A stretch of DNA of 34,710 nt from Caldifarciminota bacterium (lineage in GTDB: Bacteria; Hydrothermota; Tepidihabitantia; Tepidihabitantales; Tepidihabitantaceae). Location of the stretch: contig JAPLUO010000454.1 of NCBI GenBank assembly GCA_026397595.1, forward strand, positions 1-34,710, written 5' to 3'. The translations under genes were made by a program, and so were the position numbers. Below the pieces are notes generated by a model. It had not been told where the DNA came from. It ran no database searches and was given only the letters and a program-made list of their open reading frames with translations. Of the stretch, positions 6,130 to 34,710 are shown in pieces (within the stretch, counting starts at the first letter, position 1; the number at the start of each line of letters is the position of its first letter).

Positions 6130-7794
6130 ATGAAAACACAAGAGACAAAGGACGAAGGACAAGGAAAGGGGTCTGGGATTCAAGAAATCCAGGATTCCAG
6201 TGTCCGGCGCTGGCCCCCTCGAATCCTCGAATCCTTGAACCCTATCCGGCTGCTCCACGACACCGGCGGGCAGGTCCTGCTGCTCGGCATCATCGTGGTT
6301 ATCGCGCTGCTCGTGTTCACGCTGGCGATACCGAACGGAACCCAGGCGGTGACTCAGAAGATGCGCGCGCAGACCGCGGCTGATGCCGGGGCATTCACCG
6401 GCTCTATCTGGCTTGCCCGGACGTTCAACCTGAGTGCGAACATGAACATCGGCATCAAGAGCGTGTACACGTGGATGACCGTACTCACCGTGGGCTCGGC
6501 CCTGGCGCAAGCGCTTTACAGCGACAGCCTCGATCCGTCGGTAGAGGCAATGGGAGCAGCGATGAGTTCCGCGCTATTCGGGAACTCCAACCCGGTCACT
6601 GCTTCTCACGACCAGTATCCGATTTCGATTCAGAGGCTTGGCGAAACCGGGCAGTGGCTATCCGACCTGCAGGACGACATCGCGGTGGTCTTCCCGGCGC
6701 TGGCGCAGACGCTGGGGTCTGAGCAGGCCCGCCGGAACGCAAGCGGCGGGAACGCCTCGTCGCAAAATCCGGGCGGCATGGTACTTGTCCGGACCAATGA
6801 TACGACACCCCTGCTCGTGACCGACCACAGCGGCGACAGCCTGATGTACTCTGACCTGCTTCAACTCGGAGCTTCGTTGGAGCATATCCCGACCAACGAC
6901 TCCAACATCGGCCCTGCCAACGGAGTAGTCCTCGTTGACTCGCATAATTTTGAGATCAAGGCCTACTATGGCGACAGCAGCAGATGGATCACGCTCAAAC
7001 AGGGCCTCATCGGCAAGCTGATCGTGCATCAGTGGTACGATACCTTCCCCAATGAGCCTGACTCTCTCCACAAGATCTACTCCAGGCACCATTTCTACCG
7101 TATCGTAAATGACCCGCAGTTAGAAAGCGCCGTCGGAAAATCCTGGATCGGCCAAGGGGTCGGGATTTGGTATATTGACAGTCTAAAAAAACGCCAGCCG
7201 AAATGGCGTGTCTACGGCAAGCACTCGTATTCGATCCCCCACCCCGGCGACACGGTCTGGGTGCACCAGTCGCATTGGCAGCGCAACACCGAACCGGGAT
7301 GGGGCCCTTTGCCCCCCGGCGATACGGCGGATGGCGCTTATCCCTATATCGACAGCGGATATGACATTGTCAAATCCGGTGCCTTCTACACCGGTTTCTA
7401 CCACGGCGCCGATTCGACCAACGGCCACCAGGGCCCGAAGGTCCTACCCCGCCGGGTCAATCCCGACCGCAAGTTTCACGCGGTGGCTTACGTCTGGCGG
7501 CTGGGAGCCGGCACCTCCCCCCGCGGCCTGAGCCCGGCCGTGGGCGGATCGCTTTTCCCGCGAACCAGGGTCGCGGCAGCGTATCCGCTGCTCACCGTTG
7601 CCCGCTCCGAACCTTATCTGGCGGCGAGCGCTCCCACCGCGTATGAGTACTACTTCACTCCGGCCTGGGACGTCAGACTCACTCCGCTCGACTCGGCCGG
7701 AGTGCAGGACATCTGCAATGACGAGGCGTACGACACTCTTGGCCTTAGCACCCTTGACCTCGAGGGCTTGCGCCGGTATGTTCTGTTGCCATAA
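6130..7794 (+). CDS. TadG-like Flp pilus-assembly protein
   Basis: 'GGQVLLLGIIVVIALLVFTLAIPNGTQAVTQKMRAQTAADAGAFTGSIWLART': hydrophobic segment followed by a TadE/G-like 'QTAADAGA' motif. Confidence 0.7.
   Translation: MKTQETKDEGQGKGSGIQEIQDSSVRRWPPRILESLNPIRLLHDTGGQVLLLGIIVVIALLVFTLAIPNGTQAVTQKMRAQTAADAGAFTGSIWLARTFNLSANMNIGIKSVYTWMTVLTVGSALAQALYSDSLDPSVEAMGAAMSSALFGNSNPVTASHDQYPISIQRLGETGQWLSDLQDDIAVVFPALAQTLGSEQARRNASGGNASSQNPGGMVLVRTNDTTPLLVTDHSGDSLMYSDLLQLGASLEHIPTNDSNIGPANGVVLVDSHNFEIKAYYGDSSRWITLKQGLIGKLIVHQWYDTFPNEPDSLHKIYSRHHFYRIVNDPQLESAVGKSWIGQGVGIWYIDSLKKRQPKWRVYGKHSYSIPHPGDTVWVHQSHWQRNTEPGWGPLPPGDTADGAYPYIDSGYDIVKSGAFYTGFYHGADSTNGHQGPKVLPRRVNPDRKFHAVAYVWRLGAGTSPRGLSPAVGGSLFPRTRVAAAYPLLTVARSEPYLAASAPTAYEYYFTPAWDVRLTPLDSAGVQDICNDEAYDTLGLSTLDLEGLRRYVLLP
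6139..6243. repeat. palindromic low-complexity element R2, in-frame in the TadG-like N-terminus
   Basis: gacaaaggacgaaggacaagg..gggattcaagaaatccaggattccag ... ctcgaatcctcgaatccttgaaccct (imperfect inverted repeat). Confidence 0.6.
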
Positions 7795-7798
7795 TAGG

Positions 7799-8485
7799 AT
7801 GATGATGAAACGTCAAGACTCACACCTGACGCCCGATGCTCGACGCCGGGCGTTGAATGCCGGACGTCCCGCTCCTCGTGTGTCCGGCGTCTGGCGTGCA
7901 GCGCGTCGGGTCTCTGACGACCGCGGCGTTGCGGCACTCGAGGGGCTGCTCGTTCTCGCGCTTTTCGCCGGCGTGCTTCTCGCCTGCCTGTTCCTTGTCC
8001 AGTGGGGTACGTACCTTCAGTCCGCGCAGATGGGCGCGCGACTGCTGGCATTCGATGCCGGCGACATCGCGCTCGCCAAGCTCGGAAAAGCACCGAACCA
8101 ACCCACCCAGCAGTTCGCGAGCCAGGATTGGCGCACGCTGGTCGCGAGCCCCGGGGCAATCTGGCTCGGCGGAGTGTTCGCCCTGTCGAGCGGCGGTTTC
8201 TCGGGCAGCGTGACCGGCACGGCGCAGGGGCGGCTGCCGGGCCAGGGGCCGTCATTGTTCAACTATTCTCCTGCGACCATGGGCTACGGCGCTCGCAACT
8301 GGGCCGCGGCATCGAACCCCTGGGCAGTGCCCGAGTCGGTTGTCCAGTTGACCTTCCTGCGCGTCGCGTACAAAGTCGGACGTTACCAGGTGGACACGAG
8401 CCAGATTCCTTCGATGGTCGTGGAGTCAATCCCGCAGCAGATTGCCATCGTGGAGACGATATTCCGTCGCGTAGGAATCTGGTGA
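7799..8485 (+). CDS. TadE-like minor pilin / pilus assembly protein
   Basis: 'DDRGVAALEGLLVLALFAGVLLACLFLVQWGTYLQSAQMGARLLAFDAGD'; the ORF-track start at 7598 overlaps the previous gene, and ATGATGATG at 7799-7807 is the more likely start. Confidence 0.65.
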   Translation: MMMKRQDSHLTPDARRRALNAGRPAPRVSGVWRAARRVSDDRGVAALEGLLVLALFAGVLLACLFLVQWGTYLQSAQMGARLLAFDAGDIALAKLGKAPNQPTQQFASQDWRTLVASPGAIWLGGVFALSSGGFSGSVTGTAQGRLPGQGPSLFNYSPATMGYGARNWAAASNPWAVPESVVQLTFLRVAYKVGRYQVDTSQIPSMVVESIPQQIAIVETIFRRVGIW

Positions 8486-8489
8486 GTCG

Positions 8490-9305
8490 ATGAAAGTGGT
8501 GCTGCGCGTAATCCTGACCGTGCTACTGGTTATCCTGGGGCTGGAGGTGGGCATCAAGCTCACGCCCGGGCTGGCATCGTGGACGGGAGCCGTTCCTCAT
8601 TCCTCATTCCTCGTTCCTCATCCCTCGTTCCTCGGTCCCCGGTCTCCAGTCTCCCCCGCAGCGCAGCCGGACTGGGGCGGTGGCCGGTTGTCGTTCCCGG
8701 TCGGCTCGGCTACCGCTATCATTGACTCGGTCACAACAGCATCCGCAGAAGACCCGCCGAAAACGCAAGCCTGGTCCGGCCAGGCGGGCGGCGTCGTACT
8801 CCGGCAGAAGTCTGGCACCGATTATGCCCTTACGCTGGCTTTGCCTACTCCCGGTCAGCCCGGCCGGTGCGGGCTGTTTCAATTGCCTTCATCCGACCAC
8901 TTCAAGAGAGAACTCCTTCCGGCGGCGAAAGATGCGGAAGCGCCTGCCCCGGATATCCCTCTCTACCCGCAGTCAAGCTGCCGGATGCAGGTCGGACGTG
9001 GCACTGCCTGTTTTGTCGGATTCTACCTTACTCCCGACAGCGTTGAAGCGGTCCGCTCATTCTACGTACGGACCCTCAGTAAGCTCGGCTGGCAGCGCAT
9101 AACGACGGGAGACGGAAGACGGGAGACGGGCCGGACCGGTCCCCGGTCTCCGGTCTCCGGTCATTCCGTGCTGGAGACCTTCGCAAAGCGCAATGAGGAC
9201 CGGACGGTTGTCGTGCAGTTGAGGAAACAGGACTCGGTAACGACCCGCATCGGCCTGGTCGCGATGATGTCCGGAGGGAGTCCTGACCGTAGCGAAAGGA
9301 AATAA
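8490..9305 (+). CDS. Tad-locus hypothetical protein with N-terminal TM
   Basis: MKVVLRVILTVLLVILGLEVGIKLTPG; starts 4 nt after the preceding stop; contains two low-complexity inserts. Confidence 0.65.
   Translation: MKVVLRVILTVLLVILGLEVGIKLTPGLASWTGAVPHSSFLVPHPSFLGPRSPVSPAAQPDWGGGRLSFPVGSATAIIDSVTTASAEDPPKTQAWSGQAGGVVLRQKSGTDYALTLALPTPGQPGRCGLFQLPSSDHFKRELLPAAKDAEAPAPDIPLYPQSSCRMQVGRGTACFVGFYLTPDSVEAVRSFYVRTLSKLGWQRITTGDGRRETGRTGPRSPVSGHSVLETFAKRNEDRTVVVQLRKQDSVTTRIGLVAMMSGGSPDRSERK
8591..8656. repeat. pyrimidine-arm low-complexity insert R4, in-frame
   Basis: cgttcctcattcctcattcctcgttcctcatccctcgttcctcggtccccggtctccagtctcccc; encodes PHSSFLVPHPSFLGPRSPVSP. Confidence 0.7.
9104..9162. repeat. 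palindromic low-complexity insert R5, in-frame
   Basis: gacgggagacggaagacgggagacgggccggaccggtccccggtctccggtctccggtc; encodes GDGRRETGRTGPRSPVSG. Confidence 0.75.
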
Positions 9306-9311
9306 GCAACT

Positions 9312-10055
9312 ATGGTGGAACCCGAAAAAACCGGCCTGCTGTCCAAGAACGCATGGCGATCACTGATACTTGCCGTTGTCCTGGGCCTGGTCGGGATAGC
9401 CCTGATGAGCTACTATCTTCGTTCCCGGGATAAGAAGAAGGTGACGATCATGGTCGCGGTGGCCACCCGGCAGATTGCCGGCGGTGACACCATCAAGCAC
9501 GGCATGATCGTCCCGAAGGAGCTTCCCGATGGCGCAATCGGCGGCAACTTCGTGGACGGCAAGGACATCATCGCAGTGGAAGGGAGGATCGTGGGCGTTG
9601 ACATGGACCCGGGCCAACCCCTCTACTGGAATGCCATCCCCCTCGCGTCCCAGGGCGGGTACGATCGCTACTTAAGACCCGAGAACCGCGACCGGGCATT
9701 CGCCATCACCTTTTCGGGCGCGCTCGGCGGTGCGGCATTACCCGGGGATGTAATTGACATCCTGGGCACGTATTCCGGACAGGCATTCGAGGTGCTGCCC
9801 GCGGTGACGGTCATCGGCAAGGTCGGACAGACGCTGGTGCTGAACGTGACACCGGAAGAGGAACTGCTGCTCCTCGCCGCGCAGCCCTGCAACCTGACTC
9901 TATCCCTACGCAGCAAGAAGGAGCCACAGGAAGACATGAAACTCAAACCGGTCGGGCTTGGTGACGTTCTACCCCAGTCCCAGGTGCTGGGAAGAGCAAG
10001 AACGGCGAGATTGCGTGACACGCTCGGACCCTCGGGGACAATCCGCCGTGACTGA
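9312..10055 (+). CDS. cpaB: Flp pilus assembly protein CpaB/RcpC
   Basis: N-terminal TM, SAF-like 'VAVATRQIAGGDTIKHGMIVPKELPDG', 'PGDVIDILGTY', 'LVLNVTPEEELLLLAAQPCNLTLSLRS'. Confidence 0.85.
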   Translation: MVEPEKTGLLSKNAWRSLILAVVLGLVGIALMSYYLRSRDKKKVTIMVAVATRQIAGGDTIKHGMIVPKELPDGAIGGNFVDGKDIIAVEGRIVGVDMDPGQPLYWNAIPLASQGGYDRYLRPENRDRAFAITFSGALGGAALPGDVIDILGTYSGQAFEVLPAVTVIGKVGQTLVLNVTPEEELLLLAAQPCNLTLSLRSKKEPQEDMKLKPVGLGDVLPQSQVLGRARTARLRDTLGPSGTIRRD

Positions 10056-10074
10056 CAGTCGAAATGGGGGTAAC

Positions 10075-11238
10075 ATGCGTTGCCTGACCTTGTTGATCAT
10101 TCTCCTGACGACCGCCGTCGTCGGCACGGCCTACGCGTACGAGGAAGAAGTGACGGTCGGCGTTGGGGAGCAGAGGATTGTGCCGGTCCCGCCCGGGAGC
10201 GACATCACTTTCACCGGCCCGCTGCATATCGTGCGACTGGATGCCGGGAGGGTCAAGATCATCGGCGACGGTGCCGGGTGGGGCTCGGTCACCGTGAAAA
10301 GCGGGAATGAAATCTCCCAGTACTCGGTCACGATCGTCACCATCCCCCCGGAGCAGACGATCGCCAAACTGAAGTCACTGATGGGAGATATCGGACTGAC
10401 CTACTCTACGGGCGGCGGCCAGGTTATCGTCGAGGGACGAATTGAAACCTCCAAGGACCTGGAGCGTTTCAATCGGGTAATGGAGATGTTTCCCGGGGTG
10501 GTCAACATGGTTGTCATCGCCGCCAAGGAAGCTCTAATCGACATCGCCGTCACCCTCGTCGAGGTGGAGGCCACCACGGCCGCGGATCTTGGACTCCTCA
10601 ACATCGCTCCGCCGACCGCCTCGGCCACGATGACCGGCACGATCCCGCTGGGCGACATCACTGCAGGGAAGATCAATACCGGCGACTTCGACGTGAACGT
10701 CGCTTTGTCCACCCAGCTTCTCAACGCGCTTAGTGCACAGATCCAGGGCGGCCGGGCCAAGATCATCGCCAACCCGAGGATCATCACGCAGAACCGGAAA
10801 GAAGCCTCTATCACTTCCGGGGGCGAGATACCATATCGGGTGGTCGGCGCAACCGGAGCCCAGGGCGTGGAGTACAAGCAGTATGGCATCACATTGCGAG
10901 TGACGCCGGAAGAGCGGGCGAACGACGTGCTCCTGCAATTGCACCTGGAGTCGAGCGAACCGGTCGGTACGGTGAACGGCGTCAGCGAGAATCCGCTGAC
11001 CTCACGCAGCGTCGACCTCAACCTCGCGGTCGACAAAGACAAGACGCTGGCCGTCGCCGGTCTCTACGACGCCGTTACTTCCCGCGACACCCGGGGCGGC
11101 TGCCTCGTTCCACTGTTCGCGACCTCCTCATCCACCCGGAAACGCGAGATAATCGTCCTGGTCACCCCACGCGTATCCTTTGACGGCATCGGGCAGGATT
11201 ACTTTAAGATGGTCAATCCCAAGGACCTGAAGAGGTAA
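10075..11238 (+). CDS. cpaC: type II/III-like secretin CpaC/RcpA
   Basis: 'GGGQVIVEGRIETSKDLERFNRV', 'AKIIANPRIITQNRKEASITSGGEIPYRV', 'YGITLRVTPE'; ATG at 10075 preceded by gggggtaac. Confidence 0.88.
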   Translation: MRCLTLLIILLTTAVVGTAYAYEEEVTVGVGEQRIVPVPPGSDITFTGPLHIVRLDAGRVKIIGDGAGWGSVTVKSGNEISQYSVTIVTIPPEQTIAKLKSLMGDIGLTYSTGGGQVIVEGRIETSKDLERFNRVMEMFPGVVNMVVIAAKEALIDIAVTLVEVEATTAADLGLLNIAPPTASATMTGTIPLGDITAGKINTGDFDVNVALSTQLLNALSAQIQGGRAKIIANPRIITQNRKEASITSGGEIPYRVVGATGAQGVEYKQYGITLRVTPEERANDVLLQLHLESSEPVGTVNGVSENPLTSRSVDLNLAVDKDKTLAVAGLYDAVTSRDTRGGCLVPLFATSSSTRKREIIVLVTPRVSFDGIGQDYFKMVNPKDLKR

Positions 11239-11242
11239 TGCG

Positions 11243-12892
11243 ATGTCGTTGAAGGTCGAAGACGGGAGACAGAAGACGGAAGACGGAAGACCGAAGACCG
11301 AAGACGGTCTCCGGTCCCCGGTCTCCGGTCCTCAGTCCCCGGTCCCCGGTCCCCAGACCCCGGTGCTTGCCGACCCCGAAGCGTCCAAGAATCTCGCCGA
11401 GTTGTTCGATCAGACCAACCGGCTGCTGGCAACCGGCTTCGTCAGCCGCAGCCGGACGTCTCCGGAAGAGAAAGAACCTGCCCCCGGTCAATCGGCCGAG
11501 AGCCGCGACGACGGCCGGCCTGGCATCGGAACTCCCGGGACGATGCCGAACCTGTCGATACCGGCGGGCACCCGGGACGTCGACCGCGAAGCGCTGCCGG
11601 AGACAGCGCCGCCGGCCGACGATGGGTTGCTTGAACTCAAGCAGCGCGCCCATGACGAGCTCCTGAAACGCGTGAACAAACAGAAGCTGAGTTTCGAAGG
11701 GCTCGGCGATGGCGAGTTCCGGGACCGGGTAACCGAAATCCTGAGGATCATACTCGCGGAGCCCTCGACCGTGATTCCACCCGGGTGGACGCGGCAGTCG
11801 CTGTTGTCGGAGCTGCTCAATGATTTCCTCGGCCTGGGCCCGCTCGAGAAGTACCTGGCCGACGATACGGTTACCGAGGTCATGGTGAACCGGCCCGACC
11901 AGATATACGTTGAACGGAAGGGCCGGCTGGAGCTGACCAGCGGGCGGTTCCTGAATGAAAACCAGATCCGCGCCGTGATTCAGCGGATAATCCAGCCGCT
12001 GGGCCGGCACGTTGATGAGGCCGTGCCCTATGTTGACGCCCGGCTCCCCGACGGTTCGCGCGTGCACGTGATAATCCCGCCGCTGGCCCTGAACGGTCCG
12101 AAGGTGACGATCCGGAAGTTCTTCAAGAACAGGCTGACTACGGACGACCTGCTCCGGCTGGGTTCGCTGAGCCGGCAGATGGCCGGATTCCTCGAGATGA
12201 TGGTCAAGGCGCGGGCCAACATCCTGGTCTCGGGCGGGTCCGGCAGCGGCAAGACGACGCTGCTGAACGTTCTCTCCAACTTCATCCCCGACAATCAGCG
12301 GATTATCACCGTCGAAGACGCCGCCGAACTACATCTCAACAAGCATCACGTTATCACGCTTGAGGCCCGGGCCGCAAGCGTCGAGGGCACCGGCGCCGTG
12401 TCGATCCGCGAACTGGTCAGGAACACGCTGCGCATGCGGCCGGACCGAATCGTGGTCGGGGAGTGTCGCGGCGGCGAGGCGCTGGACATGCTGCAGGCGA
12501 TGAATACCGGCCACGACGGCTCCATGACTACGATTCACGCCAATTCCCCAAGGGATGCGCTGGCCCGGCTGGAGACCCTGGTGCTGATGGCCGGCGTGGA
12601 TCTCCCGTCGCGCGCAATCCGGGAACAGATTGCATCAGCGATCAACATCGTGGTCCAGACCGGGCGCATGCCTGACGGTTCACGCAAGATAAACCGCATC
12701 ACGGAGGTTTCCGGAATCGGGGAGAACGCCGTTTTCATGACGCAGGAGATATTCCTCTTCAAGCAACAGGGAATCGACGCTGCGGGTCGGATCATCGGCC
12801 GGTACCAGCCGACCGGCACGATCCCCAGGATCGTCGAGCAGTTGCGCGCCCGGGGAGTCAAGGTCGCCATGGAGGTGTTCGCTGCTGCTTAG
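11243..12892 (+). CDS. cpaF: Tad secretion ATPase CpaF/TadA
   Basis: Walker A 'VSGGSGSGKTTLLNVLS', 'RIITVEDAAELHL', 'LRMRPDRIVVGECRGGEALDMLQAMNTGHDGSMTTIHAN'. Confidence 0.93.
   Translation: MSLKVEDGRQKTEDGRPKTEDGLRSPVSGPQSPVPGPQTPVLADPEASKNLAELFDQTNRLLATGFVSRSRTSPEEKEPAPGQSAESRDDGRPGIGTPGTMPNLSIPAGTRDVDREALPETAPPADDGLLELKQRAHDELLKRVNKQKLSFEGLGDGEFRDRVTEILRIILAEPSTVIPPGWTRQSLLSELLNDFLGLGPLEKYLADDTVTEVMVNRPDQIYVERKGRLELTSGRFLNENQIRAVIQRIIQPLGRHVDEAVPYVDARLPDGSRVHVIIPPLALNGPKVTIRKFFKNRLTTDDLLRLGSLSRQMAGFLEMMVKARANILVSGGSGSGKTTLLNVLSNFIPDNQRIITVEDAAELHLNKHHVITLEARAASVEGTGAVSIRELVRNTLRMRPDRIVVGECRGGEALDMLQAMNTGHDGSMTTIHANSPRDALARLETLVLMAGVDLPSRAIREQIASAINIVVQTGRMPDGSRKINRITEVSGIGENAVFMTQEIFLFKQQGIDAAGRIIGRYQPTGTIPRIVEQLRARGVKVAMEVFAAA
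11256..11363. repeat. palindromic low-complexity insert R6, in-frame at the CpaF N-terminus
   Basis: gaagacgggagacagaagacggaagacggaagaccgaagaccgaagacggtctccggtccccggtctccggtcctcagtccccggtccccggtcccc; encodes VEDGRQKTEDGRPKTEDGLRSPVSGPQSPVPGPQTP. Confidence 0.8.
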
Positions 12893-15625: not shown

Positions 15626-17170
15626 GTGCGTAGATTCCTGGTCCGCGCACTCCTTCCGAGCCCCGGGGTCGGTGCGGCGATTGCCGTATTCGCTGCCACG
15701 CTGGGACAACCCAACAATCCCGATACGCTCTGGCACCTTGCGGTCGGCCGGTGGATTTTCGCCCACCACGCGGTACCCGACATCAGTCGTTTCTACTATT
15801 CAGCGACCACCGGCTTCGGGTACGACTACTCCTGGCTGTCTCAGGCGGTCCTGTTCGGCGCCTACCGGTTGCTCGGCGGGGCGGGCATCGCAATCCTGAA
15901 CTCGGTCGTGGCCGGGTTCATCTTCTACCTCATCTACAAACTGCTGGAACGGAACAGCGCAAACCTGCTGGTGAACTTCGGCGTGCTCGGGCTTGCCTTC
16001 GCGACGATCACGGCTTACCTGTCCGGACGGCCGGTGATGTTCACCGTCGCGTTCCTCACGCTGGAGGTCTTCATCCTCTCCGGTTTCGTCCAATCCCGCT
16101 CCTCCCTCCTCCCTCCTCACTCCTCCCTCCTCACTCCTCACTCCTCACTCCTCCCTCACTCCTCCCTCCTCCCTCCTCACTCCTCACTCCTCACTCCTCG
16201 CGCCTCCCTCCTCATCTGGCTGATTCCCCCGATGACGGCCCTGTGGACTAATCTGCACCCGGGTTTCGCGGTCGCTCCGCTCCTGATTCTCGCGTTCCTG
16301 CCCCTGGCCCGAACGGCCCGGGACCGCCGGACTTTGGCCGTGTGCCTGGCCGCCACCGTAATCGCGATCATCCTCAACCCGTATGGATGGAGGATGTACC
16401 TGATGCCCCTGGAGACTGCCAGGTCAATGTCCATGCTTCGGGGGCTGTCCGAGTGGACCAGCGTTTCCGGCTGGGAGACGGTGGTCTGGGGTTGTCTCGT
16501 CGCACTGGTCACCTGTGGCTTGTCATTGCGGCGGCAACCCCTGCCGGTGATACTGCTCGTCGCGCTGGCTGCCCTTGCGGCCGGAGTGAGCAACCGCAAC
16601 ATGCCGCTGTTCGGAGTAGTCGTAGTGTTTGCTCTCGGCCGGACCCTGCTGCCGGCTCTCGCCCCCGTGTTCGGACGGTCCGGCCTGATTCGGAAGTTCG
16701 ACGTGAAATTCGAGGCCGCCGGCGGCTGGTTCTGGGTCATCGCGATCCCCCTCCTCCTCATCGGTTCTCACTTCTCCCCTCTCGCCTCTCGCCTCCTGCC
16801 GCTGGACCTCGAATTCAACTTCTCTGGCTACCCTGCCGCCGCGGTCCGCTACGTCGAGAACCACGATTGCCCGGACAATCTCTTCGTACGCGAAACATGG
16901 AGCAGCTATCTGTTGTGGGCGATGCCGGACCGGAAGCTCTTCTTCGACGCCAAAGGCGGATTCAGCCGGGAAGCTGCCGAAGCCCATTCCGAGCTCGTCA
17001 AGCCCAAGGCCGGCTGGCGTGACGTTGCCGACCGCTACGGCCTTTCGACGTTCCTGCTCGAGCGCGGCAGTCCGCTCGCCGTCGTCCTCAGCGAGGCTGC
17101 CGACTGGCGTCGAGAGTACTCCGATTCACTCGCCGAGGTCTTCGTGCGCCGCGCAGCCGTGCGGGAGTAG
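15626..17170 (+). CDS. polytopic membrane protein, GT-C glycosyltransferase-like
   Basis: GTG start; 'PDTLWHLAVGRWIFAHHAVPDISRFYYSATTG...YDYSWLSQ' and multiple TMs. Confidence 0.6.
   Translation: MRRFLVRALLPSPGVGAAIAVFAATLGQPNNPDTLWHLAVGRWIFAHHAVPDISRFYYSATTGFGYDYSWLSQAVLFGAYRLLGGAGIAILNSVVAGFIFYLIYKLLERNSANLLVNFGVLGLAFATITAYLSGRPVMFTVAFLTLEVFILSGFVQSRSSLLPPHSSLLTPHSSLLPHSSLLPPHSSLLTPRASLLIWLIPPMTALWTNLHPGFAVAPLLILAFLPLARTARDRRTLAVCLAATVIAIILNPYGWRMYLMPLETARSMSMLRGLSEWTSVSGWETVVWGCLVALVTCGLSLRRQPLPVILLVALAALAAGVSNRNMPLFGVVVVFALGRTLLPALAPVFGRSGLIRKFDVKFEAAGGWFWVIAIPLLLIGSHFSPLASRLLPLDLEFNFSGYPAAAVRYVENHDCPDNLFVRETWSSYLLWAMPDRKLFFDAKGGFSREAAEAHSELVKPKAGWRDVADRYGLSTFLLERGSPLAVVLSEAADWRREYSDSLAEVFVRRAAVRE
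16099..16213. repeat. pyrimidine-only low-complexity insert R9, in-frame in the membrane protein
   Basis: (ctcctccctcctccctcctcactcctcactcctcact)n; encodes SSLLPPHSSLLTPHSSLLPHSSLLPPHSSLLTPRASLL. Confidence 0.85.
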
Positions 17171-30500: not shown

Positions 30501-32997
30501 GTCATATGACGTTGTTCAGGACACGTGGCAGCCGCGCCAGGCGCATCCGTGCCCGGTTGACGCACCGGCGCTCGCCGCTCAAAATGGTTATGTCTACGGG
30601 CACAGCGGCGCAGCCGACACCGCGTTTGCAGTGTACGTGCCGATGCCGGATACTGACGTGGCCGCACTGGCCATACTCTCGCCACCGGACACGGTGCGCA
30701 GCGACTCTTTCTTCCGCCCGACCGGTGTCGTGCAGAATCTGTCACCATGGCTGTTGGGCTTCTCGGTGGAGTTCTTCACCACCAGCCGACAGCTCCTGCA
30801 GTATGTCGAGCTCGAACCGGGCGCATCGGACACGGTTTATTTCGATTCGATTCAGCTTCCGATGGGAATCCAACAGGTGACTCTCACAACGCTTTGCCAA
30901 GGTGACCAGAGACCGGCCAATGACTCGTCCTCGACCGCGGTCATTGTCCGTCTTCCGCAGGACATAGCTGCCTTGGAGGTGTTGTCTCCGGTTGGTGAGA
31001 TAAGGTCAGACAGCCAAGTTGTACCAACGGGGCTTGTGGAGAATCTCTTCGACGAATCTCTTGACGTGTGGGTCCACATGCGGATCGGTAGCGTCTATAG
31101 AGACTCGCAGTTCGTTTCGCTGCCACCCAGTGAACCTGAGACGGTGGCCTTCGTCGCAACCTACCTACCGCTCGGGCTTCACGAGGTGTGTATGAGCGTG
31201 TTGTCTGATGAAGTGCCCGAGAATGACAGCGTGACGGATAGCTGCGAAGTCACCGGCGGCAACTGCTGGATACCGCGCGCCGACTATCTGCAACACACAA
31301 GCGTCAATCTGGTGGATTACGAACCGGGTGGTGCATACGCCATCGGTCACTTCAACTGTGGCGGTGGCTCCAAGCTCTTTTCGCGCTACGCAGCAGATGG
31401 TGATACGTGGCATCAGCTCCCGGAATCGCCACTTGAGGAGGGTGCTTCTGCCGCCTGCCGGAGTGGCACCAAAGTGTACGCGGTCGGGGGATTCGATATG
31501 CCGGGTGTTCGGGCCGCCGTCAGGCGGGGCTCTGGGCCGGCGTTCAGCAACTCGAACGATGGCATCGTCTGCTTTGACGAGGTTGCCGGCACTTGGGACA
31601 CAGTGACGGTGGACGTGGATGCAGGTCCCGGGCTGTACGCATCAGGTGATGACCTCTACGGGTTGGGGGTGGACCCGGACCCGGCCGGGAACTGGTCGAA
31701 GTACGTCATCTCCGAGGACTCGTGGTACGACCTGTCTCCGATGCCGGAGTCCTTGGTTGACTGGACGTCGGGCGCACATGACGGCGGAGACCATGTATAC
31801 GTTCTCACCGGCTCGAGCGGCGAACTCTACAGGTACGACATCTCCCAGGATACTTGGGTTGCTCTCCGGTCTTTGGAGAGCACGACGCCGGCGTGGGCCG
31901 CGCTCGCCTGTGACGCGACGCAAGGCTGCCTGTACGCCTTCTGGACTCCGGACGGGAGCCCAGACTGCTTCTTCAGCTACAGCATCGAAGGAGATAGCTG
32001 GCATAAGCTCGCAGCTTTTCCCTACCCGTACCAGATACGCTATCCATCTGTCTCCGCGTGGGCGGGGAAGGTGTTCGCGTCTTCATCGCGCTATCCTTGG
32101 GACACAACCGAGAACTTTGCTCAGTACGTTCCGGTGCCGTCTTTGGACGTTGCTGCACTGGAAATCCTAGGCCTGCCGGATACGGTCCGGTGCGATACCT
32201 TGGTCCGACCACTTGGAGTGGTTCTGAATTCCGGTAATGCGTATATGCATTGTGACGCCAGATTCGTGTGCGGATCAGACACGCTCCATGAGGTGATCGA
32301 CCTGCAGCCTTGGCAGCAGGACACGGTTGCCTTCGATTCGACATACTTGGACCCCGGGCTGTGGAATGCGGAACTAGTCGCCACGTGTTCCGGCGACGAG
32401 AACCCGGCGGACGACACGGTTCACAGCGCAGTCATGGTCGAAGGTCCATGGGAGCCTCGAACGCCGCCGGCCGCTTTCTATGGAGGCCGGCTGGACGCCG
32501 ACTCAGCCTGGGTATACGGAGCAAGCGAAGAGGACCACAGCGCGGCGATGTGTTCTCTGCAGACCCAGACCTGGGAGCAACTGACACCGACGCCGTTCGA
32601 CTCGGGCTGCATTGACCTGAGCCAGCGCGACGGCAGGCTGTACGCCGTTGGGATTCCGTGCGGCTTCGGTTCCAGTTCAGCAGTCTACACCATACTGCCC
32701 AGAGACACGGTTTGGCAGCTTGTCACTGACAGCCTGCCGGTCGCTCTCGATCCATCGGACCCCGCATGGATAGTCGCGACCGCAGACGGTATCTACCTTG
32801 AGCCTGCATACGGTCAGGAATTCTGGCTCTACCGGTTCGATTCACTCGGCGGTGGCGCTTGGGAGCAGAAGCATCAGGTGCCGATGTCGGTGCACTGGCC
32901 CTGTGCAGTCGATTGGGACCGTGCCGACGCCATATACCTGATGTCGCTACCAATCGTGGCTGCGGCGCAGACGACCTTCTACCTGAAACCTGCGTGA
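24532..32997 (+). CDS. giant modular secreted protein (propeller / beta-helix / CARDB-like / Kelch-like repeats), 5' and central part; prematurely terminated inside a MITE TIR
   Basis: ATG 24532 (gggagg RBS; MKRMRRATLFAWLACFSVLQA signal), not 24205 as in the ORF track. Repeating ~100-aa modules 'D.AA..I..P...V..DS...P.GVV.N......V...IGS.Y.D...V.L......V.FD...LP.G.Y...L.V...GDE.P.ND'. Confidence 0.8.
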   Translation: MKRMRRATLFAWLACFSVLQAKLVPIPCLTAPPIQRLTRSEAKEHWGQDPFGNCHGVDMMPLPRLATGDSMPIAFVVTDPGREQLKYGMCYEAGEERWMDSPGECGQVGFQGDSLFYVRGVSIDTFMYEQSSTKLYAYVASRNSLRIQRFRFDVTAHTLSYLNDIYSTNVGRIDDVCCARAPDGVSSGAYVAVVNSCTSVLTILGVSKTNMSVTTLAEVGEPGGGDNQFSQPEGVWIVKNIDPQNGYYDIYVADRGNSRVAHLHFDPEHNQLSWQTALVVPGADFVDVTANASGYVYAVDYSGGRLVVFAPDLAEVAYDYYGSGFDHPVEASVYKDELVVTEWWSDNAGIQYFRIVPEIQDLRGSGMFDATIDSSFCKFNLSELPGYVTVSIKTDPERVLLQDSLVYPGDTVTVWWDGRDTQGHLAIPDVYQFRVSVEFRQGNQDSLLTEVKYLPDTVKGTTLSSGVYASATWDTLHEPYVLSGHDFNINGGSHSATLTIQPGVRVMFHDSVVSRTIYVHTDDRIEALGTAQKPVYFMLHRTMAEGFNPAKRGWWGGIHFYSGSNGAKFNNCAFENGGYNVVYSSTPNSGVLVDFDSCQFRGACGRAIQVDSDSARERIDIDNCHFEYCADYPIFTLRAPAVADVSATCTFENNGANNQFNAIRVYAGTGDGAIASSCTWRNCGTGFFYLIMEHDLTVMSSTGGNPVLTIEPGVTIRLRGDCGIQVGSLTQGGAIVALGQASAPITFRGADSVWNGMELAKCAGACSLRYCVFREGVQKQRATYHSFQYYPMLWCHENQASPWIYRCKFLDAERDIPNQYGTGICIKKATPHIEGCKFHNNDAGIIGEFSGGRSCEVDYCQIDSGGEGYRILGVAHGALPKIQYSNIFQNDYGAINYDGDAYLNAQHNWWGPDNQTRPGWPGNGNNDVYGGYVSYDPAESLSYPMWCTDVQVCSIIRPSVFTAPDTLAPMGTARNNFEEQVILTATMRIGSVYADTVLDTLAAYATDSIVFDTVALDTGTYTVVFKVSMAGDEIPANDSIVQTVHVREERDVAADAVLSPPDWILSDTTVVDTPVGVVHNYYHSTLEFPVTFTIGENYTRTETCSVDSGQTDTLWFPPCTLAVGHYSAVFYTDCEKDTNRHNDTISYTVAVRESIDAAAAYIIEPAESLYTVEDTLDFAVRVANNGNVALLLPVNLYVDNDIIQTVSVNVDAHDSATASFDSRTLVSGQRWLKYEVDLDGDDNPANDTVAKGITVKAGDFWVEQPAPEESVARLCWDGDQHVYAAARNELAIERFDMATRTWTSLACPPFGGPVSGITALDGQIYALGVPGAGLSTTRRGPAPAAQPFSPARAVGTQSPSGPRLDQEPSLYRYEADGDSWVFVTGCPCAATLGQGAALVGDDTTKLYLLDGTSSRLYSYHIEADVWDSVQTPVLFNYRGAADWGRGGLYALSDSLNLWRYAPGGGWWPVSSPGGPGLLPRLPSYDPAICCDPVLDRLFTFYFGSLGGITNGMGFRERSNQYGGAWMLRAGLSSETTEVSLCFGSTQAYCLDGRGGFWRYRPAPLFDAAAVTVVVPDTVPRESSFVPKGVIQNGWNDSLQIDAHLSMGAYHDVQTVIVPPQTWDTVEFAPESLQPGIYQETLRTTLIGDNYPFNDTARRNLTVRYRRDAAAVEIVVPRDWVPAESLIHPVGVIENRLDDTMSIWAYMTIGSQYADSELVTLAALSDSEVEFDTLRLPVGEYEAELRVSVAGDEVPENDHMFGEVEAKAGDYWWPLAPSLASAPLLVAGGPERIYAFDKQSAEFDRYGITSSDWDSIGVTGYNAQISACRHGQNLYVLGKLSGTGPYAVITCDTANFVWHSFGGPLPPLKVTDYSRLAVSSNGTVYLLARAQSGPGICFWRSNGGILWASQQVLAETLSSRASVAYDGADHIYLLTGSMGRLYKYGLTQNQWDTALTSLQLAAPTTSALTCDSARQRLYAFWASPNALGSFWSYDVVQDTWQPRQAHPCPVDAPALAAQNGYVYGHSGAADTAFAVYVPMPDTDVAALAILSPPDTVRSDSFFRPTGVVQNLSPWLLGFSVEFFTTSRQLLQYVELEPGASDTVYFDSIQLPMGIQQVTLTTLCQGDQRPANDSSSTAVIVRLPQDIAALEVLSPVGEIRSDSQVVPTGLVENLFDESLDVWVHMRIGSVYRDSQFVSLPPSEPETVAFVATYLPLGLHEVCMSVLSDEVPENDSVTDSCEVTGGNCWIPRADYLQHTSVNLVDYEPGGAYAIGHFNCGGGSKLFSRYAADGDTWHQLPESPLEEGASAACRSGTKVYAVGGFDMPGVRAAVRRGSGPAFSNSNDGIVCFDEVAGTWDTVTVDVDAGPGLYASGDDLYGLGVDPDPAGNWSKYVISEDSWYDLSPMPESLVDWTSGAHDGGDHVYVLTGSSGELYRYDISQDTWVALRSLESTTPAWAALACDATQGCLYAFWTPDGSPDCFFSYSIEGDSWHKLAAFPYPYQIRYPSVSAWAGKVFASSSRYPWDTTENFAQYVPVPSLDVAALEILGLPDTVRCDTLVRPLGVVLNSGNAYMHCDARFVCGSDTLHEVIDLQPWQQDTVAFDSTYLDPGLWNAELVATCSGDENPADDTVHSAVMVEGPWEPRTPPAAFYGGRLDADSAWVYGASEEDHSAAMCSLQTQTWEQLTPTPFDSGCIDLSQRDGRLYAVGIPCGFGSSSAVYTILPRDTVWQLVTDSLPVALDPSDPAWIVATADGIYLEPAYGQEFWLYRFDSLGGGAWEQKHQVPMSVHWPCAVDWDRADAIYLMSLPIVAAAQTTFYLKPA

Positions 32998-33191
32998 ATT
33001 CCCCATGTTAGAGCTTCGGAGTTCGGGTTCTTTTCAGGGCGAACTTCACACTTTGTGGGGCACCTCTCCGCATAATCTTAGGCTAACCAAAAGGTAGTCT
33101 AAGATTATGAGCAAAACGGACGTGGGCCTCAAGCTATGCGCGGCTTCAAGCCCCGCCTTAGATGGGAAATTCACGCAGGTTTCAGGTTCTA
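32977..33191. mobile_element. 205-bp MITE-like insertion (32982-33186) with 5-bp TSD TTCTA
   Basis: TTCTA(32977-32981)|CCTGAAACCTGCGTGAATT(32982-33000) ... AATTCACGCAGGTTTCAGG(33168-33186)|TTCTA(33187-33191); internal hairpin cataatcttag...ctaagattatg at about 33070-33109. Confidence 0.9.
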
Positions 33192-33819
33192 TGCCTACTC
33201 GACCAGCGCTGACACATGGGCTGAACTGCCGGACCTGCCGTTCGAGGTCAGCCCCGGGCTGGCGCTCGCCGCTGAGCCGTGCGGGAATCGCGTCTTTGCA
33301 CTCGCCCCGAGCGATTCCGGGACGGTGCTGTGGGAATACAGTGCATTAAGCGGCACCTGGACTCAGCGGCCCTCTCCGCCATGGGTCGGTGACGTCGGCA
33401 TGTCTGCCGCGTTTGCTGCTGGCAACGTGTACGCGCTGACCGGCTTTGAGATGACACCCGGCTGGTTCTGGTGTTATGACCCCTCGTTTGAACTGAATCT
33501 CGGCCGACATCTGGAAGGTGTGGCCGGCGCATCTCAGCCGCTGTTGCGTTGGACATGCACATGCGAACCGAATCCATTCGTGGCACGGACAACCATACGG
33601 TGGCAAGTTCCCAAGCTCTGTGACGTGTCGCTGAAGGTGTACAACACCGCTGGTCAGATGGTCCGCCTGCTGCGGCAGGGAAGTGTGAAGCCGGGCATCT
33701 ACACGACTACCTGGAATGGCTGCGACGGCCGTGGGCGTCACGTCGCTGCAGGCGTTTATTTCTGTACGCTGGAGAGCGGCCAGAAGAGGATTAACAGGAA
33801 AGTCGTTCTAACGGACTAG
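33192..33819 (+). pseudogene. separated 3' part of the giant protein, including C-terminal sorting-like domain
   Basis: Same frame as 24532-32997; 'AYSTSADTWAELPDLPFEV...' continues the Kelch-like propeller; C-terminal 'LKVYNTAGQMVRLL...YTTTWNGCDGRGRHVAAGVYFCTLESGQKRINRKVVLTD'. Confidence 0.85.
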
Positions 33820-34078: not shown

Positions 34079-34522
34079 GTGGACACGGTCGGCGGGCCGC
34101 GTTGGGTCGCGGATTTCTGGGGGCATGTGAAGAGCACGAAACTGGCTATGACAGATTCCATCACAGAGTTTAGGACAGAGTTTCCGGTAGAGTCTATCTT
34201 GGAGTCTGGGATAGAGTCTCCGGTAGATTCTATCTTGGAGTCTCGGTTGGTATCTATCTTGGATTCTATCTTGGAGTATCGGTCAGAATCCAGGGCAGAT
34301 TTTATCTTGGAGTCTCGGTTGGAGTCTCGGCCAGATTCTATCTTGGATTCTCGGTCGGAATCTACCTTGGATTCTATCTCGGTTTCTATCTTACGGTCCA
34401 GGTTGGATTCTATCTTGGAGTCTCGGATAGAATCGCCTTTAGAGTCGGGGTTGGAACCATTCCCCCAATCACCGGGGGGTCGAGGCCGGGGGGTGGCGTT
34501 TTCTGCGTGTATGTATCAGTAA
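34079..34522 (+). CDS. tetrapeptide-repeat ORF ([DE]S[IR]L)n spanning the 12-nt array; coding status uncertain
   Basis: Open frame through the entire array (GTG 34079 or ATG 34148): ESILESGIESPVDSILESRLVSILDSILEYRSESRADFILESRL... Confidence 0.35.
   Translation: MDTVGGPRWVADFWGHVKSTKLAMTDSITEFRTEFPVESILESGIESPVDSILESRLVSILDSILEYRSESRADFILESRLESRPDSILDSRSESTLDSISVSILRSRLDSILESRIESPLESGLEPFPQSPGGRGRGVAFSACMYQ
34154..34453. repeat. 25 x 12-nt in-register tandem array, GA[G/T/A]TCT-N6 units, with 18 GANTC sites
   Basis: Alternating unit types GATTCTATCTTG and GAGTCTCGGTTG with no indel over 300 nt. Confidence 0.9.
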
Positions 34523-34654
34523 TTCAAGGGGTTGGAAATTGAGGCGTCGAAAAGTCGCATGTTCCGGGACCGGGTCACGGCGGGCGAGACCGGGGTGCAT
34601 TATTTCGGGCTCCTGATGATGATAGTCTATTGAGGACCTAAAAAGAGGAGCAAT

Positions 34655-34710
34655 CATGCTGGAAAGTGAATTGGAGCCCGAGTTCGTGAGTCTGCTGGAA
34701 ACGATTCGCC
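34655..34710 (+). CDS. start of an unidentified gene, truncated by window end
   Basis: aaagaggagcaatcATG; MLESELEPEFVSLLETIR... Confidence 0.5.

Follow-up and report, generated by a model that had tools for sequence, protein, structure and literature searches.

The coat proteins of the archaeal filamentous viruses (Adnaviria) bind DNA with little sequence specificity. Their footprint is exact: as seen by cryo-EM, the coat dimers of AFV1 and SIRV2 (PMC5517147), and likewise that of SFV1 (PMC6105669), each take up 12 bp of A-form DNA. A search of the literature for bacterial homologues of Adnaviria coats, or for 12-bp arrays, found nothing on point. The stretch of DNA analysed here (34,710 nt, hereafter the window; contig C132 of a 4.7-Mb genome in 494 contigs, G000, our source genome) ends with an array of 12-nt units followed by the start of a gene for a coat-like protein. 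What could hold the pitch of such an array constant while its units change, and what is it doing in front of this gene?

The array of the window and its copies

The array spans positions 34154-34453 (+ strand) and comprises 25 phased, degenerate units of 12 nt without any indel, 18 of which start with an exact GANTC, just as the initial annotation had described it; both the unit count and the lag-12 identity bear this out. The latter amounts to 0.587 compared with a maximum of 0.344 across 2000 shuffles, making the array, by a wide margin, the strongest lag-12 stretch of the window, with no other 300-nt stretch comparable. Unit positions 1, 2, 4 and 5 are occupied by G (24/25), A (22/25), T (25/25) and C (21/25), respectively. 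The two interleaved unit types that had been proposed proved too few, as the spacers include ATCTTG, CGGTTG, GGGATA, CCGGTA, AGGGCA and others.

Directly 5' of the array lies a conserved head, CTGGCTATGACA (34142-34153, + strand; family form CAGGCTATGACA), which the alignment shows to be common to nearly all genomic copies; homology to one of them (C276) begins at 34131. On the other side, and on the same strand, there follow a conserved tail with a C-run/G-run inverted repeat, CCCCC...GGGGGG (34462-34479), kept across copies, a conserved leader motif between array and gene, GGTGCATTATT (34594-34604), recognized in the tail alignment of the copies, and a Shine-Dalgarno-like AGAGGAG (34645-34651). 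The gene itself, ORF1 (34656-34710, + strand), has its ATG at 34656, about 200 nt 3' of the array, and is truncated after 18 codons by the contig end; its start (MLESELEPEFVSLLETIR...) is identical to that of the full 123-aa ORF1 of copy C486. Elsewhere in the window are Tad-type pilus genes (6130-12889; TadE/G-like, secretin, T2SSE ATPase) and a repeat of ~220 bp (32981-33199), 97% identical in C486 and, over a 147-bp part, 98% identical in C379, which bears the inverted repeat CATAATCTTAGGCTAACC...GGTAGTCTAAGATTATG and looks like a recent MITE-type element. Degenerate heptanucleotide arrays of period 7 occur at 8591-8638, 11257-11364 and 16099-16214; being frequent elsewhere in the source genome as well (nine in 218 kb), they constitute a second class of fixed-period repeat.

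It had been suggested that homologous arrays with the same 12-nt phasing be looked for, and they exist in many copies in the source genome and its relatives. Blast places the window array at 21 sites of its own genome, and a three-unit GANTC pattern has 167/155 genome matches versus 4/0 for a control pattern; the copies have head and tail in common and differ in their flanking genes. A scan that presupposes no motif, measuring self-similarity at each lag from 5 to 24, was applied to 400 kb of G007, a relative assembled as one contig and belonging to the same family as the source genome, and to 218 kb of the source genome itself. It revealed 14 and six arrays, respectively, whose period is 12 or 24 and whose units are unrelated in sequence. 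With a stricter filter the figures, which refer to genome samples rather than whole genomes, were 13 and 4, respectively, and 5 in 80 kb of G003, and G006, G012 and G031, sampled over 80 kb each, showed no period-12 array. The median array length is ~26 units (69 arrays). Because two G007 arrays with different motifs nevertheless have ~430 nt in common at 79% identity, mostly in the tail, array motifs change faster than the ends, with the period fixed at 12. Some array ends in G007 and G004 (loci L162, L163, L164, L078 and L079) bear a common CGTAAGTSACG ~18-38 nt outside the array; confined to some of these copies, it was set aside as a general flanking motif. At another locus (L170:1392-1568), the 5' part of a group II intron (RF02001) runs directly into a 12-nt array; here the array element appears to be inserted within the intron, the intron being no part of the array.

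The 12-bp pitch of these arrays is constrained. When homologous arrays are compared, every gap comes to a net multiple of 12, over a total of 704 substitutions, and the few gaps of odd length are paired, each pair summing to 12 or 24, as ambiguous placement predicts. The flanks, on the other hand, accumulated 46 non-12 gaps across 437 substitutions, a large contrast even though overlap among the array pairs makes the counts not fully independent. Since a constraint on reading frame alone would permit changes of 3, 6 or 9 nt, none of which was seen within the compared arrays, it is the 12-bp spacing that is constrained. Dyad symmetry, as expected of a dimer site, reached significance in only 3/10 motif clusters (Fisher p=0.018) and was rejected on that count as a general rule of the arrays.

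Coat-like genes and their linkage to arrays

Downstream of the array, copies C486 and C379 carry ORF1 (~123 aa), then ORF2, ORF3 and a gene for an ECF sigma factor. ORF1 and ORF3 represent one domain family with no close counterpart in Pfam, NCBIfam or PHROG, and G005 and G007 each have a relative of ORF1 on the 3' side of an array, whose motif in G007 is altogether different; the G007 protein matches Sulf_coat_C at 9.6e-5, just under the cut-off. A profile (A2) built from 28 divergent coat-like members was searched against 177,635 PDB sequences, and its top seven matches were all Adnaviria coats, with E-values that are moderate, though consistent: 6d5f_a (3.3e-6), 5w7g_A/3fbz_A (1.6e-4), 6wq0 (0.0066), 3f2e (0.016), 3j9x (0.017) and 5w7g_B (0.034). 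In terms of proteins, they correspond to 6d5f (labelled 'Fimbrial protein', which we take to be the SFV1 virion), AFV1 ORF140 (two entries), 6wq0 (labelled 'structural protein', presumably a rudivirus coat), the SIRV coat (two entries) and AFV1 ORF132; the next match is unrelated (E=0.2). Individually, 13 of the 28 members match Pfam Sulf_coat_C (best 1.6e-5), hhalign returns P=5e-6 with AFV1 ORF132 and 9.5e-5 with SIRV2, and in a decoy search three coats came out best of 1941 targets. It is very probable, judging from these sequence comparisons, that the coat-like proteins are distant homologues of the Adnaviria major coat proteins (SFV1, AFV1, SIRV2).

The family has 69 matches in the source genome and is present in 28/28 genomes of the source order versus 1/119 other sampled genomes of the phylum; close relatives were not found in phage, plasmid and viral-contig collections. 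The operons counted encode one coat-like domain in 25 cases, two in 18 and three in 2, and across two-gene operons the first gene matches first genes and the second matches second genes, the two forming separate clades. Their 74 neighbour proteins belong to host-type, HTH, sigma and TA families (25 of 47 families listed); among them are, in G007, an XRE gene that separates the array from the coat gene and, in G000 and G005, an ECF sigma gene lying downstream. Within the 25 neighbour families listed no viral gene recurs, which speaks against reading the array operons as an Adnaviria virus or provirus. That two compact genomes (G006 and G012) keep a single array-less coat-like gene in the same gene order likewise favours domestication over proviruses, and the coat system is probably a bacterial, domesticated one.

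How tightly are arrays and coat-like genes associated? Linkage was measured on chosen genomes, and of the 41 operons that the protein profile by itself located in array-bearing genomes, 21 have a period-12 array on their 5' side, mostly at a distance of 30-300 nt, and only two have one on their 3' side. When all loci, including those from earlier steps, are considered, an array lies within 1 kb 5' in 27/47 operons and 3' in 2/47, whereas other periods (7 to 21) are represented 5' of 0-3/47. A further set had arrays 5' of 4/5 operons in G002, 3/7 in G015 (two counted before) and 1/2 in G018 (another family). At five G018 loci (L284, L292, L296, L300 and L304) the contig ends directly 5' of the coat-like gene, as if these assemblies broke inside arrays. 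The association is far from universal: none of 19 coat-like operons in compact genomes and none of eight in G008 has an array and, conversely, only one of the ~14 arrays in 400 kb of G007 has a detected coat-like gene adjoining. Moreover, gene pairs that are 60-80% identical can carry different array motifs.

Competing explanations and a proposed model

The initial annotation had offered three kinds of explanation for the array, namely a tetrapeptide-repeat protein, a protein-binding or methylation-dense cis element, and a satellite. Translation into a ([DE]S[IR]L)n protein on the + strand, or of the antisense strand, has a very slight chance of being correct: most copies keep the + frame open and have an ATG or GTG near the head, yet stops occur in several copies, there is no common end, the array of one relative is frameshifted internally, and indels come in multiples of 12 rather than 3, in-frame changes of 3, 6 or 9 nt being absent. 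Substitutions between homologous arrays of the source genome are distributed over codon positions 1/2/3 as 98/139/133 in the + frame, and as 26/49/48 when pooled from five independent array pairs, i.e. one column class is quieter and the second varies about as much as the third, in agreement with the earlier remark that synonymous sites are not obviously favoured. The dN/dS check that had been proposed likewise gave no clear synonymous excess, with a pN/pS of 0.66 in the tetrapeptide frame versus 0.67-1.08 in the other five, no better than two of them; on the codon-position pattern and the stops, coding on either array strand was set aside. Might the array act as RNA instead, folding or pairing once transcribed to form a structured leader of the operon? 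The + strand of the window does fold better than its dinucleotide shuffles (z=-4.98), and the conserved tail contains a hairpin, but folding is indifferent to unit order (window z=0.0) and the excess is missing from other motif families (C357, G018, G007), so that RNA structure was dropped as a general array feature and a leader role seems highly improbable; Rfam had no match within the window. Least probable of all, with hardly any chance of being right, is a CcrM-type, GANTC methylation-dense element for segregation or replication control. Despite a density of 18 phased sites in 300 bp, compared with ~5.9 per kb in the remaining window, few unit positions vary more than the C of GANTC (51/370 pooled substitutions), GANTC occupies less than half of the units in most sister arrays of other sub-families, and other array families are built of non-GANTC units. 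Nor did the genome yield a CcrM-type (RAMA) methylase in a search that was positive in the Caulobacter control; it does have 28 other matches to N6/N4 DNA methylases, with specificity unassigned, many inside long open frames.

Two further explanations take the linkage to coat-like genes into account. The arrays could be a selfish or neutral dispersed repeat, i.e. elements with conserved ends that are copied around the genome, slip by 12 nt and travel together with coat-like genes. The many orphan copies, the tails held in common by elements with different motifs, the element within a group II intron and the frequency of 12-nt indels would all suit such a repeat. A neutral array, however, should collect small indels as its flanks do (46 non-12 gaps there, none net in the arrays), and the linkage is restricted to the 5' side and persists across genera with motifs that are unrelated and genes that have diverged; indels of any length and the lack of a fixed genomic partner, the features of a neutral tandem repeat, are not those of the arrays. 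We thus regard this explanation as rather unlikely, and a plain satellite, as suggested earlier, would explain neither why arrays lie 5' of a single gene family nor why the pitch stays fixed as motifs change. Alternatively, the array could be an operator or enhancer for another factor, such as an XRE-type regulator or an ECF sigma, merely regulating the coat-like genes. The XRE gene of G007, the ECF sigma genes of G000 and G005, and the recurrence of HTH and sigma domains among the neighbours speak in its favour; yet few operons have such regulator genes (2-3 of 74 neighbours), whereas the array and its 12-bp pitch are general, making it improbable.

A cis-element role of some kind can thus be assumed with good confidence, and of the options considered at the outset a protein-binding element fits best. 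We lean, with less assurance, towards a more specific proposal, in which a bacterial module, a DNA-wrapping coat system, has the array as its cis-acting DNA half, and are about equally inclined to think that the coat-like proteins wrap the array directly, by analogy with their viral counterparts. In this view the module joins a run of ~26 sites, spaced exactly 12 bp apart, to the genes that follow immediately 3' and encode one or two small coat-like proteins, in rare cases three. These proteins would dimerise, as heterodimers in paired operons, much like AFV1 MCP1/MCP2, and one dimer would bind each 12-bp unit. Bound dimers would then nucleate a cooperative filament on the array, wrapping the DNA, probably in A-form, and the filament would either control the promoter of the coat-like genes or begin local DNA packaging. 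That the array precedes the promoter points to autoregulation, or else to wrapping that starts there, at a loading site, and spreads; the arrays are best read as 12-bp-registered nucleation or autoregulatory sites. The pitch as such is only consistent with a four-helix-bundle dimer wrapping 12 bp of A-form DNA. As similar gene pairs carry different array motifs, it may be the pitch, not the sequence, that the coat-like proteins read.

Several observations count against the coat-array proposal, i.e. the majority of arrays, which have no detected coat-like gene adjoining, the array-less operons of G008 and the compact genomes, the differing motifs of similar gene pairs, the patchy dyad symmetry and the low sequence specificity of the known viral coats. 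Perhaps arrays with no detected partner gene are targets in trans, remnants or non-autonomous copies. A bolder version, in which an order-wide, domesticated Adnaviria-like coat wraps chromosomal DNA or packaged fragments (in the manner of a gene transfer agent) into A-form filaments starting at arrays in 12-bp register, is speculative and, on balance, doubtful; were it true, cells would for the first time be seen to form an A-DNA nucleoprotein filament whose loading sites are encoded in the sequence. An order-conserved bacterial coat family paired with arrays at the pitch of the coat footprint would tie an isolated virus realm to cellular proteins and suggest that bacteria can use A-form DNA wrapping. 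A puzzling repeat is also turned into a directly testable prediction, one dimer per 12 bp.

Comparison with described systems

With CcrM/GANTC methylation systems the window array shares its many GANTC sites, but the motif of the arrays is not conserved and no CcrM-type enzyme was detected. The short degenerate tandem repeats of bacteria (heptanucleotide STRR) are dispersed, degenerate and of short period too, and period-7 arrays are even present here; unlike them, the period-12 arrays are strictly phase-locked and specifically linked to the 5' side of one gene family. Plasmid partition centromeres, in which an iteron array accompanies the gene of a DNA-binding adaptor, similarly place a direct-repeat array directly 5' of a small-protein operon. 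They differ in that no partition ATPase was found among the 25 of 47 neighbour families listed, in that the arrays exist in tens of chromosomal copies, and in that the proteins resemble viral coats rather than ribbon-helix-helix adaptors. A further parallel is offered by the nucleocapsids of the Adnaviria (SIRV2, AFV1, SFV1). In contrast to these viruses, the operons reside in multiple copies on bacterial chromosomes, with no virus-hallmark genes beside them among the neighbour families listed, and possess dedicated 12-bp arrays, none of which occurs in the SIRV2 and AFV1 stretches examined. What they have in common is the detectable sequence homology of the coat-like proteins, a tandem pair of paralogues of the kind known from AFV1 (ORF132/ORF140) and SFV1 (side by side in 18 operons, with a single domain in 25) and an array unit of 12 bp, equal to the published 12 bp per coat dimer, onto which a bacterial dimer would be predicted to fit.
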